Assembly (NCBI RefSeq): GCF_028743515.2
Contig: NZ_CP117969.2
Coordinates: forward strand, 191,001 to 255,000
Source of the DNA: Imtechella halotolerans
GTDB taxonomy: Bacteria; Bacteroidota; Bacteroidia; Flavobacteriales; Flavobacteriaceae
DNA: 64,000 nt
Reading direction: 5' to 3'
Shown here: one piece after another, positions 42,050 to 50,044 of the stretch
Numbering within the stretch: the stretch's first letter is position 1
Layout of the letters: the number at the start of each line of letters is the position of its first letter
Program-made: the position numbers and the translations under genes
Notes under the pieces: model-generated
The model's input: only the letters and a program-made list of their open reading frames with translations
Databases searched by the model: none
Told to the model about the DNA's origin: nothing

Positions 42050-43003
42050 ATGAGTTTTTTTAAAAAAATATTCTCTTCTGACAAAAAGGAGACTCTAGAT
42101 AAGGGATTGGAGAAATCCAATTCATCTTTTTTTACCAAACTAAGCAAGGCAGTTGCAGGGAAATCAAAAGTAGACGATGAGGTATTAGATGATCTGGAGG
42201 AAATTTTAGTAAGCAGTGATGTTGGAGTTAATACTACGCTTAAGATAATAGAACGTATAGAAGCACGTGTAGCACGTGATAAATATCTAGGGACAGATGA
42301 GCTGAATGTCATTTTACGTGAGGAAATTGCTGGATTGTTATCTGAAACTAATACAGGGGAAGATACCGAATTTGTAGTTCCGACCAGTTCAAAACCGTAT
42401 GTGTTAATGGTAGTGGGTGTTAATGGTGTTGGAAAAACCACAACCATTGGTAAATTGGCACATCAGTTTAAAAAGCAAGGAAAAAAAGTGGTACTAGGAG
42501 CAGCTGATACCTTTAGGGCTGCTGCAATTGATCAATTGCAAGTCTGGGCTGACAGAGTAGATGTTCCTTTGGTAAAACAACAGATGGGGAGTGATCCTGC
42601 TTCGGTAGCCTTCGATACCCTGTCCTCTGCTATGAATCAGGATGCGGATGTAGTTATAATAGATACTGCTGGAAGATTACATAATAAGGTGAATCTTATG
42701 AATGAACTTTCTAAAGTAAAACGAGTAATGCAAAAAGTGGTACCTGATGCACCACATGATGTGTTATTAGTATTGGATGGTTCTACTGGTCAGAATGCAT
42801 TTGAGCAGGCTAAACAATTTACTAAAGCTACAGAGGTTACTTCTTTAGCTGTCACTAAACTTGATGGTACGGCAAAAGGAGGAGTGGTAATTGGTATATC
42901 TGACCAATTTCAAATTCCAGTCAAATACATAGGAGTGGGAGAAGGTATTGAACATCTACAAGTTTTTAATAAATATGAATTTGTAGATTCATTCTTCAAG
43001 TAA
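42050..43003 (+). CDS. ftsY: Signal recognition particle receptor FtsY
   Basis: 317 residues, the membrane-associated GTPase that docks SRP-ribosome complexes. The acidic A domain is short, and the N domain begins KAVAGKSKVDDEVLDDLEEI. The G domain contains the P-loop VGVNGVGKTTTIGKLAH, GAADTFRAAAIDQLQVWADR, DTAGRLHNKVNLMNEL and TKLDGTAKGG, ending in GEGIEHLQVFNKYEFVDSFF. Confidence 0.98.
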   Translation: MSFFKKIFSSDKKETLDKGLEKSNSSFFTKLSKAVAGKSKVDDEVLDDLEEILVSSDVGVNTTLKIIERIEARVARDKYLGTDELNVILREEIAGLLSETNTGEDTEFVVPTSSKPYVLMVVGVNGVGKTTTIGKLAHQFKKQGKKVVLGAADTFRAAAIDQLQVWADRVDVPLVKQQMGSDPASVAFDTLSSAMNQDADVVIIDTAGRLHNKVNLMNELSKVKRVMQKVVPDAPHDVLLVLDGSTGQNAFEQAKQFTKATEVTSLAVTKLDGTAKGGVVIGISDQFQIPVKYIGVGEGIEHLQVFNKYEFVDSFFK

Positions 43004-44805: not shown

Positions 44806-45429
44806 ATGTTTATAAAAAAGATGAATGAAAAATTGTCATTATCCCTTGCGCAGCATGGTTTGGAAATGGCAAATCCGATGCAAAAAGCAGTTTTTGGAAC
44901 GTTGAAAAGTGGTGCGGACACTGTAATCTTAGCACCTAAAAATGCAGGAAAAACAACCACTATGGTGATGTTGGTTATTCAACAATTGACAGCTGCTTTT
45001 GAGGATTCTCCACGCGCCCTAATAGTTGTTCCGGATAAAGAACGACTTCTTCACATGGAAGCACTTTTTAACCAATATGCTAAACATACAGATTTACGTG
45101 TATTTGCAACTCATGAAAAAACAGATATGGATGGTGATAAATATGAGATATCGTGTGGAATAGATGTGCTTATTGGGACACCTAAACGTTTATCTGATAT
45201 GTTTTCATCAGCAGGTTATAATGTAAATAAGCTCCATATGTGGATTATGGATGAATTGGATGAAATAGCCAAAAACCGACAGGAACATTTGTTGGATAGG
45301 CTCTCAATTAGTATTTCTAAAGTCCAACGCATTATGTGTTTAAATGAATATCACGAACGGGCGGTAGCTATGGCTGACAGGGTTGCACCCGATGCCAACT
45401 GGTTTGATTTTGAAGAGGAGGAGGACTAA
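44806..45429 (+). CDS. Stand-alone DEAD-box-like RecA1 domain protein
   Basis: 207 residues corresponding only to the first half of a DEAD-box RNA helicase. The Q-motif-like region is MANPMQKAVFGTLKSGADTV, the P-loop variant is APKNAGKTT, motif Ia is LIVVPDKERL, motif Ib is IGTPKRLSD and motif II is DELD in MWIMDELDEI. SAT motif III and the whole RecA2 domain are absent. The end (PDANWFDFEEEED) is acidic and looks like a true C-terminus, with a terminator 14 bases later. So it is a one-lobe protein and not a clear truncation. It may bind ATP/RNA or modulate a full helicase. Confidence 0.85.
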   Translation: MFIKKMNEKLSLSLAQHGLEMANPMQKAVFGTLKSGADTVILAPKNAGKTTTMVMLVIQQLTAAFEDSPRALIVVPDKERLLHMEALFNQYAKHTDLRVFATHEKTDMDGDKYEISCGIDVLIGTPKRLSDMFSSAGYNVNKLHMWIMDELDEIAKNRQEHLLDRLSISISKVQRIMCLNEYHERAVAMADRVAPDANWFDFEEEED

Positions 45430-45443
45430 TATAGTTAGTATAA

Positions 45444-45472
45444 AAAAAAACAGGCAATGCCTGTTTTTTTAT
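45444..45472. terminator. Bidirectional hairpin terminator
   Basis: AAAAAAACAGGCA-ATGCCTGTTTTTTT with A and T runs on both flanks, after the DEAD-like gene. Confidence 0.85.
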
Positions 45473-45863
45473 GCCTATTTATCGCTAGTTATTCATTTGA
45501 AATCTGATAGGAGTCAATCCAGTTATGAAATGCCTGGTCCATCTCTTAATCTCATGTAAATAATCTCCTAAAATAATCCCTAAATGATAGGCATAAGTAC
45601 CCATGTACAAAATACTAATATCAAGTATTAATAGTTGTTTTTTATTCGTTTCTGTTGGTTGTTTGTATTTTGGAAAAGCTATATGGAGGTGTTATAAATG
45701 TATATATAGAGGTTATTAATAGTTGAAGTAATTCGTTGAAGATTATCAGATTATTATTTAGAAGTTATAATTAGATTACCAATCGCATTCAAAATAATTG
45801 CAGGTAATTTTGAAAGAAGATATGTTCTTGATAGTTATCTTTGCGGCTTCAAAAAATGGACCT
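45473..45863. other. Intergenic region before the ABC-F gene
   Basis: On the minus strand a 39-codon frame at 45485-45604 (product beginning MGTYAYHLGIILGDYLHEIK) ends just before the bidirectional terminator and could be a small protein. On the plus strand TATCTTTG at 45836-45843 is a -7 element for the ABC-F gene, with TTTG at 45809-45812 (spacer 23, longer than usual). The rest is AT-rich and holds nothing I recognise. Confidence 0.4.
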
Positions 45864-47501
45864 ATGATTACAGTAAATGATATAGCGGTGGAATTTGGCG
45901 GAACTACACTATTTAGTGATGTTTCCTTTGCCATCAATGAAACAGATAAAATTGCCCTAATGGGAAAAAATGGTGCAGGGAAATCTACATTACTTAAAAT
46001 AATAGCTGGTGTGAATAAGCCTACCCGAGGGGGGATTTCAGCCCCTAAGGAAGCAGTGATAGCATATCTTCCTCAGCATCTACTCACAGAAGACAATTGC
46101 TCAGTTTTGGAGGAGACCTCTAAGGCGTTTGCTGGTATTTTTAAGATGAAGGCTGAAATTGATGCACTTAACGAGGAATTGACAGTACGCACGGACTATG
46201 AAAGCGATGCTTATATGAAACTAATTGAACAGGTCTCTGAATTAAGTGAAAAGTATTATTCAATAGAAGAAATTAATTATGAGGCTGAAGTCGAAAAAGT
46301 TTTAGTAGGACTAGGTTTCGAGCGAACAGACTTCCAACGACCAACTTCGGAGTTTTCGGGGGGGTGGCGTATGCGAATTGAACTGGCTAAAATTTTACTT
46401 CAAAAACCTGATCTAATTTTATTGGATGAACCTACAAACCATATGGATATTGAGTCCATTCAATGGTTGGAAGATTTTTTAATTAACCAGGCGAAGGCTG
46501 TAATGGTAATTTCTCACGACCGGGCTTTTGTCGATAATATAACTACACGAACCATAGAAGTTACTATGGGTAGAATATATGATTATAAGGCTAAATATTC
46601 ACATTATTTAGAACTGAGAAAAGATAGAAGGGCCCATCAGCAGAAGGCCTATGAGGAACAGCAAAAAATGATTGCTGAAACCCAGGAATTTATAGACCGT
46701 TTTAAAGGCACCTATTCTAAAACGCTGCAGGTGCAGTCTCGCGTAAAAATGTTAGAAAAACTAGAGTTGGTTGAAGTTGATGAAGTAGATACATCTGCAT
46801 TGCGTTTAAAGTTTCCACCTTCACCTAGATCCGGTCAGTACCCAATAGTTGTTAGTGAATTATCTAAACAATATGATAACCATGTTGTTTTTAAAAATGC
46901 TAGCATGGTGATTGAACGTGGAGAGAAGGTGGCATTTGTTGGGAAAAATGGAGAAGGAAAATCGACGATGGTCAAAGCCATTATGAGTGAGATAGGTTTT
47001 GAAGGTTCTTTGGAGGTAGGACATAATGTAAAAATAGGGTATTTTGCACAAAATCAAGCCTCGTTACTGGATGAAAACCTAACAGTTTTTGAAACAATTG
47101 ATCGTATTGCTGAAGGGGATATTCGTACAAAAATCAAGGATATATTGGGGGCTTTTATGTTTGGTGGTGATAATTCTACGAAAAAAGTGAAAGTGCTTTC
47201 AGGAGGTGAAAAAACAAGGTTAGCTATGATTAAGTTACTTCTTGAACCTGTAAATGTGCTTATTCTGGATGAACCTACAAACCATCTTGATATGAAAACG
47301 AAGGATATTATTAAGGAAGCTTTACGTGAATTTGATGGTACTCTTATACTAGTGTCTCACGATCGTGACTTTCTTGATGGATTAGTAACTAAGGTCTTTG
47401 AATTCGGGCATAAACGAGTGCGTGAACATTTTGAAGATATCAATGGGTTTCTTGCCATGAAGAAAATGGAGAATCTTCGAGAGATTGAACGAAAAAATTA
47501 A
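45864..47501 (+). CDS. ABC-F family ATPase
   Basis: 545 residues from the ATG at 45864 (MITVNDIAVEFGG); the frame can be read from a TTG at 45798, but those residues overlap the promoter and are not conserved. Two ATP-binding domains: Walker A GKNGAGKST and signature FSGGWRMR in the first, GKNGEGKST and LSGGEKTRL in the second, with Walker B LILLDEPTNHMD and VLILDEPTNHLD. The linker between (~230-310) is charged and helical. Like other ABC-F proteins it has no membrane part and acts on ribosomes, relieving stalled or blocked translation. A perfect AAGGAGG lies after the stop. Confidence 0.94.
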   Translation: MITVNDIAVEFGGTTLFSDVSFAINETDKIALMGKNGAGKSTLLKIIAGVNKPTRGGISAPKEAVIAYLPQHLLTEDNCSVLEETSKAFAGIFKMKAEIDALNEELTVRTDYESDAYMKLIEQVSELSEKYYSIEEINYEAEVEKVLVGLGFERTDFQRPTSEFSGGWRMRIELAKILLQKPDLILLDEPTNHMDIESIQWLEDFLINQAKAVMVISHDRAFVDNITTRTIEVTMGRIYDYKAKYSHYLELRKDRRAHQQKAYEEQQKMIAETQEFIDRFKGTYSKTLQVQSRVKMLEKLELVEVDEVDTSALRLKFPPSPRSGQYPIVVSELSKQYDNHVVFKNASMVIERGEKVAFVGKNGEGKSTMVKAIMSEIGFEGSLEVGHNVKIGYFAQNQASLLDENLTVFETIDRIAEGDIRTKIKDILGAFMFGGDNSTKKVKVLSGGEKTRLAMIKLLLEPVNVLILDEPTNHLDMKTKDIIKEALREFDGTLILVSHDRDFLDGLVTKVFEFGHKRVREHFEDINGFLAMKKMENLREIERKN

Positions 47502-47518: not shown

Positions 47519-47558
47519 ATAAATGCGGTTAAGGTATAACCGCATTTATTTTTTTCCA
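47519..47558 (+). terminator. Terminator of the ABC-F gene
   Basis: AAATGCGGTTA, loop AGGTA, TAACCGCATTT, then ATTTTTTTCC. The stem covers the last codons of the convergent hydrolase gene. Confidence 0.85.
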
Positions 47559-48584
47559 AAGTTCGTTATCGAAGTTTGAAAGCGCAAAATTTTCTCCTTC
47601 GGCAACCTCTCCAAGTCTAATGATGACCAGGTCCTTACTGGGAACTATATATATCTTTTGATCGTTTTTTCCCAGAGCACAAAACATATCTAATGGAGCC
47701 TCGGGTATAAGAGTGCCGTTGAATTGCATCTGGGATTGTGGAAGTCTAAAGGACGCTTTTCCATTTAACCACCATAAATAGCCATACGAAAGATTAAGTT
47801 GTTGAGAGGTGTTCACTGCTTCTTGTACATATGATTTTGGTACAATTTGATCAGTATCCCACTTGCCTTCTGAGGCGATCATAAGACCAAAGCGTGCCAT
47901 GCTTCTTGCATTACTCCAATACACGCTTAAGTTATTAAGTTCTGTCCAAGTCCCTGTCATCCCTATTCTGTTTTTTATTTTGGAATTGAAATAGGTGCTC
48001 CATTCTTGTCCACTAGCTTGCTCAAGTAGGTCTTGTATGAGTACGTATACATTATGGTACGCCCATCTTGTACCTGCATCTGCGACATACTGTAAGTTTT
48101 CAGGAGAAACATTATCACCAGTAGAATCATCAAGTCCCGAAGTCATACTTAATAAGTGTTTAATTTGAATTAAATTCTCTTTTTCTAAAGGAGCGCTGGT
48201 CCACCCAGTCCCCAAATAATCAGACACTTTATGATTAATATCAATAAGACCTTCGTCTTGTGCAATACCCGCAGCTGTTGCTGTTAATGTTTTGCCTGCC
48301 GAAGCCCAGTACCATGGATTATTGGCAGAAAAACCATCGAAGTAATATTCTATAGCTATTCGACCATTTTTGAGGATGATAAAGGCTTTGGTGTTTTTTT
48401 TATCCAGATATTGGTATAATTCTTCTAATGCATTAGTGGACCATTGAAGCGATTCAGGAGTCACTGTTTCCCATGTGGTATTAGAGGTTGGAGGGAATTA
48501 GGTTTGAGAATTAGTTTGGGATGTGTCATCTTTTTGACATGCAATAAGACAAAAGAAACAACATAAAAGTAGGATTCGAGGCAT
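47529..48584 (-). pseudogene. Lipoprotein serine hydrolase (beta-lactamase class C type) with in-frame stop
   Basis: Reading from the ATG at 48584 gives a lipoprotein signal (MPRILLLCCFFCLIACQKDD, lipobox LIAC, Cys16). At codon 29 a TAA (48498-48500) interrupts the frame. The same frame continues as FPPTSNTTWETVTPESLQWS and then a complete serine hydrolase/beta-lactamase-like domain: SxxK motif WASAGKTLTATA, YxN-like segment in RWAYHNVYVLIQDLLE, and conserved LLSMTSGLDD. The domain itself has no other break. The only downstream start is GTG 48464, which would give a 311-residue product without an export signal. The gene is therefore either a fresh pseudogene, a sequencing error, or uses readthrough. 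Confidence 0.8.
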
Positions 48585-48715
48585 TTTGTTAGGGTTTATA
48601 AATTACTAAAATACATTTAAATTATTTGACAACTAAATCCACTACCGTATAACTAGCTGATTTATTTTCAATAGTATAATCTTAGGTTGGTCATCTTAAA
48701 TAAGGTTAAAAGTTG

Positions 48716-48723
48716 TACTTTTG
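48716..48723 (+). promoter_or_regulatory. -7 element of rimO
   Basis: TACTTTTG fits TAnnTTTG, 19 bases before the rimO ATG; the same sequence heads the AIR synthase gene. No -33 motif at the standard distance is seen (nearest TTG is 26 bases upstream). Confidence 0.45.
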
Positions 48724-48742
48724 CACTCCAAATTTCAAGATA

Positions 48743-50044
48743 ATGAGAACCAAGTCATTAAAAAAGAATACAATAAATGTAGTAACGTTAGGATGTTCCA
48801 AAAACGTATATGATAGTGAAGTCCTTATGGGGCAATTACGAGCTAATGGAAAGGAAGTTGTACATGAGGAAGAAGGTAACATTGTTGTGATTAATACCTG
48901 TGGTTTTATCAATAATGCTAAAGAAGAAAGCGTAAATACCATCTTGGAATTTATGCAGAAGAAGGAGGAGGGGCTTGTAGATAAAGTGTTTGTGACAGGT
49001 TGTCTTAGTGAGCGTTACAAGCCTGATTTGGAGAAAGAAATTCCCAATGTAGACCAATATTTTGGGACTTCAGACTTGCCAAGGTTGTTAAAAGCGCTAG
49101 GAGCTGATTACAAGCATGAACTTATAGGGGAGCGTTTGACAACAACGCCGAAAAACTATGCCTATTTAAAAATTGCTGAAGGTTGTGATCGTCCCTGTAG
49201 CTTCTGTGCTATACCTCTTATGAGAGGAACTCATAAAAGTACTCCGATTGAAGATTTGGTGATTGAGGCTCAAAAACTTGCGGCAAATGGAGTTAAAGAA
49301 TTAATACTAATTGCTCAGGACTTGACCTATTATGGCCTGGATTTATATAAAAAGCGTCGCTTAGCAGATTTGTTGCTTGCATTAGTAAAAGTGGAAGGGA
49401 TTGAGTGGATTCGTTTACATTATGCATTCCCAACCGGATTTCCAATGGATGTGTTGGAGGTAATGAAACAAGAGCCTAAAATATGTAATTATCTCGATAT
49501 TCCTTTGCAACACATTTCTGATTCCATCCTGAAATCAATGAGGAGAGGAACCACTCAGGAAAAGACAACTAAATTGTTGGAATCCTTTAGAGCTGCTGTA
49601 CCGGATATGGCAATTCGTACTACCCTAATTGTTGGATATCCAGGAGAGACTGAGGAGGATTTTGAAATTTTGAAGAACTGGGTTTCTGAAATGCGGTTTG
49701 AACGCTTAGGATGCTTTACCTACAGCCATGAGGAAAATACCCATGCTTATCAACTTATTGACGATGTGCCAGAGGAGGTGAAACAAGCACGAGCTTCAGA
49801 AATAATGGATATCCAATCTCAGATATCATGGGAGCTTAATCAAGAAAAGGTAGGGAAGACCTTCCGTTGTATAATTGATCGAAAAGAAGGAACTTATTTC
49901 ATAGGTAGAACTGAGTTTGATTCCCCTGATGTGGATAATGAGGTGTTAATTGATGCAACACAGCACTATGTAAAAATTGGAGAATTTGTAAATGTACATA
50001 TCACGGAAGCTGCTGACTTTGACCTTTATGGAGTGCCTCAATAG
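48743..50044 (+). CDS. rimO: Ribosomal protein S12 methylthiotransferase RimO
   Basis: 433 residues from the ATG at 48743 (MRTKSLKKNTINVVTLGCSK); the reading frame is open slightly further back. It adds a methylthio group to an aspartate of ribosomal protein S12. Three domains: UPF0004 (~10-125, cysteines in TLGCSKN, INTCGF and TGCLSERY), radical SAM (~135-365, cluster motif EGCDRPCSFCAIP) and TRAM (~370-433). All iron-sulfur ligands are present. Confidence 0.96.
   Translation: MRTKSLKKNTINVVTLGCSKNVYDSEVLMGQLRANGKEVVHEEEGNIVVINTCGFINNAKEESVNTILEFMQKKEEGLVDKVFVTGCLSERYKPDLEKEIPNVDQYFGTSDLPRLLKALGADYKHELIGERLTTTPKNYAYLKIAEGCDRPCSFCAIPLMRGTHKSTPIEDLVIEAQKLAANGVKELILIAQDLTYYGLDLYKKRRLADLLLALVKVEGIEWIRLHYAFPTGFPMDVLEVMKQEPKICNYLDIPLQHISDSILKSMRRGTTQEKTTKLLESFRAAVPDMAIRTTLIVGYPGETEEDFEILKNWVSEMRFERLGCFTYSHEENTHAYQLIDDVPEEVKQARASEIMDIQSQISWELNQEKVGKTFRCIIDRKEGTYFIGRTEFDSPDVDNEVLIDATQHYVKIGEFVNVHITEAADFDLYGVPQ

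Follow-up and report, generated by a model that had tools for sequence, protein, structure and literature searches.

Does an early in-frame TAA in a serine hydrolase gene of Imtechella halotolerans mark a broken gene, a gene that is still expressed in some altered form, or an intact gene that has been misread in the assembly? The gene lies on the minus strand of a 64,000-nucleotide stretch of the genome (the window), where the frame that begins at ATG 48584 reads MPRILLLCCFFCLIAC-QKDDTSQTNSQT-stop-FPPTSNTTWETVTPESLQW and, beyond the stop (TAA, 48500-48498), stays open to a TAA ending at 47529. The stop is codon 29; it splits a complete lipoprotein signal from an open 322-codon frame for a PF00144 serine hydrolase, and as a result export signal and enzyme do not share one open frame in the window copy. 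The first in-frame candidate for a restart is GTG 48464, from which the remainder is 311 aa. A preliminary description had placed the TAA at codon 29, the lipobox cysteine at residue 16, the GTG and the 311-aa remainder, and all of these coordinates proved right.

Upstream of the stop, the signal peptide (48537..48584, minus strand) ends in the lipobox LIAC with Cys16, and orthologues have a Cys at the equivalent place. The four residues that follow, QKDD (48525..48536), fit C-X-K-(D/E)2, the signal reported as optimal for lipoprotein export in Capnocytophaga canimorsus (PMC5080379), and agree with the surface-exposed (LES) lipoproteins of Bacteroidota, in which X-K-(D/E)2 or a polar/acidic motif comes after the Cys; judged from this motif, the ancestral, uninterrupted protein was probably exposed at the surface of the cell. 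One or two acidic residues are found among the five after Cys in 78 of 84 sequences, window included. The linker TSQTNSQT (48501..48524) then leads from the export signal to the stop (48498..48500), which is followed by the segment FPPTSNTTWET (48465..48497), the GTG (48462..48464) and the hydrolase domain itself (47529..48464, 311 aa, with no further lesion). The downstream frame matches PF00144 with E 2.9e-25 (89.6 bits against a cut-off of 27), and no NCBIfam model scored above its own cut-off for the hydrolase. PF00144 serine hydrolases are defined by an SxxK nucleophile motif and a YxN motif, which in the window copy are S95AGK (S95-K98) and Y176HN (Y176-N178) in the numbering of the interrupted frame. 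Signal and linker thus lie before the stop and the catalytic domain after it without a second lesion, as had been described and as the frame itself, the orthologue alignment and the PF00144 match all bear out.

Translation is expected to begin at the ATG, since A occupies all four of the upstream positions (-3, -6, -12 and -13) that were reported as favourable (PMC6847099), compared with two (-3 and -12) at the GTG. A search for a Bacteroidota-type promoter upstream of the hydrolase returned near matches only, on which we do not rely.

To place the stop among relatives we assembled a comparison set in which 80 loci came from a single scan across species genomes and 31 more, the window's locus among them, from searches of 60 relatives and the genome itself; the window's genus is represented by this one genome, as a single strain. 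Of the other 110 loci, 94 match at E 1e-50 or better (local tblastn) and the remainder are distant paralogues. The set of 83 orthologues at a minimum of 60% identity omits the window locus, a locus with its own stop (L093), one identical duplicate and the nine homologues that fall short of 60% identity; one locus (L102) starts at a contig edge, and for two others (L110 and L015), which have no upstream in-frame ATG, we took the sequence from the open frame. In alignment, the pieces on either side of the window's stop form a single protein matching full-length orthologues whose frames continue through the stop column, and we are therefore dealing with one gene carrying one lesion. That column is Tyr in all 83 orthologues (TAT in 58, TAC in 25) and, once the nine distant homologues are added, in 91 of 92 sequences, with Phe in the other. 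The motif that this Tyr opens, YFPP, is kept with F in 81/83, the first P in 83/83 and the second P in 75/83, and an invariant Trp lies a few residues downstream. Because the Tyr is near-invariant, the stop replaces a specific residue and is not a natural gene boundary. A single base substitution suffices to explain it, as had been suggested from the sequence, though CAA, offered then as an example of the ancestral codon, is excluded by the Tyr column in 83/83 orthologues. Across the hydrolase family, the YFPP and WET segment (YFPP at window positions 48489-48500) is near-invariant and links the linker to the catalytic domain.

The stop is also private to this genome. When 397 genomes of the family were searched at E 1e-60, 146 had the gene; of the 149 matches they gave, the window's alone contains a stop, and a stop is present in none of the 83 aligned orthologues, as would be expected of a recent pseudogene. 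The other 251 genomes gave no match at that threshold. In Flavobacterium cyanobacteriorum TH021 (L093) a single in-frame TAG interrupts the hydrolase at codon 189 of an otherwise intact frame; it is an independent nonsense lesion, or an error, in the same gene as the window's. The many genomes lacking a match, together with this TAG, indicate that the gene is accessory. Its only other hit in the I. halotolerans genome has 25% identity, leaving no close substitute copy.

The surroundings of the gene agree with orthology. A divergent neighbour at 48713..50044 on the plus strand, which we take to be rimO, and a gene at 42050, presumably ftsY, have counterparts in the fetched flanks of 57/110 and 66/110 related loci, respectively, counts that run low because paralogue loci and short contigs are among the 110. 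Since the hydrolase has the same neighbours in relatives as in the window, the window gene is the ancestral copy. Hydrolase and ftsY are often nearer each other in the 110 loci than in the window, where the interval 44806-47501, between an amidase and the hydrolase, holds a 207-aa single-domain DEAD-box protein (PF00270) and what we presume to be an ABC-F-type ATPase; a search of the flanks of the 110 related loci turned up neither gene. Flavobacterial orthologues, about 63-69% identical over the hydrolase (80 loci) and often sharing rimO and ftsY as neighbours, differ from the window copy in having Tyr at the stop column and reading through. They have the window's layout of signal, linker, YFPP and domain; examples are those of Gelidibacter japonicus (L034), Meridianimaribacter flavus (L037) and Winogradskyella (L033).

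If ribosomes re-initiated at GTG 48464, 33 bases past the stop, a cytoplasmic hydrolase without export could still be made, as the frame past the GTG is intact and conserved and A stands at -3; we nevertheless consider this improbable. None of the aligned orthologues begins at the GTG (0/83), and all 83 carry a YFPP-type motif upstream, which excludes the GTG as the natural start; the preliminary description had named orthologues beginning at the GTG as a finding that would count against an interrupted gene. The GTG column is itself variable (Lys in 50/83, Val in 9/83), and the start context is weaker there than at the ATG. We agree with the earlier point that a product begun at the GTG would lose export, its signal lying upstream of the stop, but it would also lose the conserved YFPP/TWET segment, which is predicted to be ordered. 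An AlphaFold2 model of the L034 orthologue (mean pLDDT 85) was built on 37 sequences, namely the window protein and 36 of 90 listed rows, with L002 and L010-L014 removed for strand orientation; in this alignment S100, K103 and Y181 (L034 numbering) are invariant and N183 is nearly so. The model shows disorder through the linker up to about residue 30, and order sets in with the YFPP-type segment (pLDDT 87 for residues 31-40 and 94 for 41-50), suggesting that translation from the GTG would give a protein missing part of the fold in addition to its export signal. Among the solved structures listed as matches to the model, the nearest in fold are Lsa45 (8dc1), 6-aminohexanoate-dimer hydrolases (4gb7, 1wyb and others), PIB-1 (8rlj) and EstG (7u1c), with E 8e-17 to 1e-13. 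The SxxK and YxN motifs and the Pfam match of these PF00144 relatives recur in the window protein, whose gene differs in being interrupted; identity to the listed solved structures is only 11-20%, too low to assign a substrate.

A more elaborate version of the restart has the gene undergoing fission into two useful products, a 13-residue lipopeptide whose surface-export signal is complete, and a serine hydrolase that is restarted at the GTG and stays in the cytosol. We regard this as very improbable; were it true, the locus would show a fission step no more than about 1% neutral divergence old.

Could the stop instead be decoded? Low-level near-cognate decoding of the TAA, with no dedicated suppressor, would yield some full-length lipoprotein, and the downstream frame, which to date lacks relaxed constraint, and the presence of two tRNA-Tyr genes whose products might misread the codon are compatible with it. 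The genome's 43 tRNA genes (ARAGORN), however, include none with anticodon TTA, CTA or TCA. We sampled the same genome as the window plus 20 stretches of 20 kb (464 kb, about 15% of the genome), in which TAA ends 170 of the 242 frames of at least 250 codons, 61 of the 170 as TAA-T; as the main stop of these long frames, TAA is not reassigned. Here, too, the base after the TAA is T, and UAAU has been reported to terminate translation more efficiently than any other bacterial stop signal (PMC5289835), placing this stop in what that source describes as the strongest terminator context, at a column where no relative keeps a stop. Recoding or a suppressor tRNA was rejected on the tRNA complement and on the lack of any systematic in-frame TAA in the 464-kb sample. 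The suppressed stop that had been listed among the possibilities is thus unlikely, and we give occasional near-cognate decoding very little weight.

Phase variation or strain polymorphism, with regular gain and loss of the stop, had been raised as well, and beyond the fact that the lesion is single there is nothing in its favour. The change is a plain substitution, with neither a repeat tract nor an inversion at the site, leaving the proposal without a basis in the sequence. We know of no switching mechanism that acts on single substitutions at useful rates, and we consider this the scarcely credible end of the range.

How old, then, is the lesion? The window protein branches close to the base of the clade, and its root-to-tip distance is 0.41, on the slow side of the median of 0.47 (rank 71 of 84). 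None of the 84 has a longer terminal branch (0.358), a length that we attribute to the genus standing alone in the set and do not read as decay, since distant homologues have the same residue at each of the four near-invariant columns from which the window protein departs: residues 85, 182, 203 and 324, private relative to the 83 close orthologues, recur in 5, 7, 4 and 2 of the nine distant homologues, respectively. Accelerated decay was accordingly rejected. At 134 conserved columns the window protein has no residue that is unseen in the other 92 sequences, the 322 codons hold no further nonsense change, and the six residues that are unseen elsewhere all fall at variable columns. Counting 157 nonsense and 724 novel-missense paths as open, we obtain 1.0% as the upper 95% limit on the neutral divergence accumulated after the lesion, a bound which presumes that changes at conserved columns turned neutral at the moment of the lesion. 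When each sequence was left out in turn, 56 of 84, the window's included, scored zero; the window copy therefore behaves like a working gene. There is no sign of relaxed constraint after the lesion, a result that fits three cases alike: a lesion of very recent date, an artefact, and continued use of the gene.

An undecayed frame is also what an intact gene would show if the TAA existed in the assembly only, through a base-calling or assembly error, and many single-lesion bacterial pseudogenes were reported to be assembly errors in a published study (PMC11017572). We consider such an error unlikely here, but it carries real weight. The genome is a single contig with an estimated completeness of 99.86%, the stop site is not a homopolymer, and among 379 coding open frames in the 464-kb sample this gene alone looked split by an in-frame stop, giving the assembly no appearance of being error-rich. 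In that sample 25 of the 379 frames run at least 40 codons before an ATG; inspected by eye, 19 of the other 24 appeared to be GTG- or TTG-start genes, antisense frames and one remnant lacking its 5′ part, and among those inspected the hydrolase alone is preceded, in its own frame, by a 5′ piece that matches. In the same genome, a 171-codon coding stretch (L190:14069-14581, about 714069-714581 of the contig) matches the C-terminal part of PF13480 (GNAT acetyltransferase); its 5′ part is absent from every forward frame upstream, and it is a decayed gene remnant.

Taken together, we put the probability at roughly two in three (0.68) that the TAA is a real and very recent single-substitution nonsense allele of an accessory lipoprotein, for which a surface location is inferred. 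The ancestor would have been a single-copy, surface-directed lipoprotein with a PF00144 (class C beta-lactamase/esterase-like) serine hydrolase domain, in which one base substitution very recently turned the Tyr codon of YFPP into TAA. Ribosomes starting at ATG 48584 would now stop after 28 residues, and after processing a lipopeptide of about 13 residues (Cys16-Thr28) would remain, with the exported enzyme probably lost. The case is most likely an ordinary one, either a gene broken very recently or a sequencing error at a single base, both of which the preliminary description had listed and both of which we keep as candidates, the downstream frame being undecayed. It resembles the bacterial single-lesion pseudogenes, real or spurious, described elsewhere, which likewise show one nonsense change in an otherwise intact frame (PMC11017572).

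The locus offers a clear case of an accessory lipoprotein gene interrupted by one early nonsense codon and is useful mainly for annotation: the 311-aa open frame that begins at the GTG should not be annotated as a cytoplasmic hydrolase, and the stop site offers a good check on assembly quality. For the family, the conserved YFPP segment and the LES-like tail make the flavobacterial hydrolases encoded beside rimO candidate surface esterases or peptidases.
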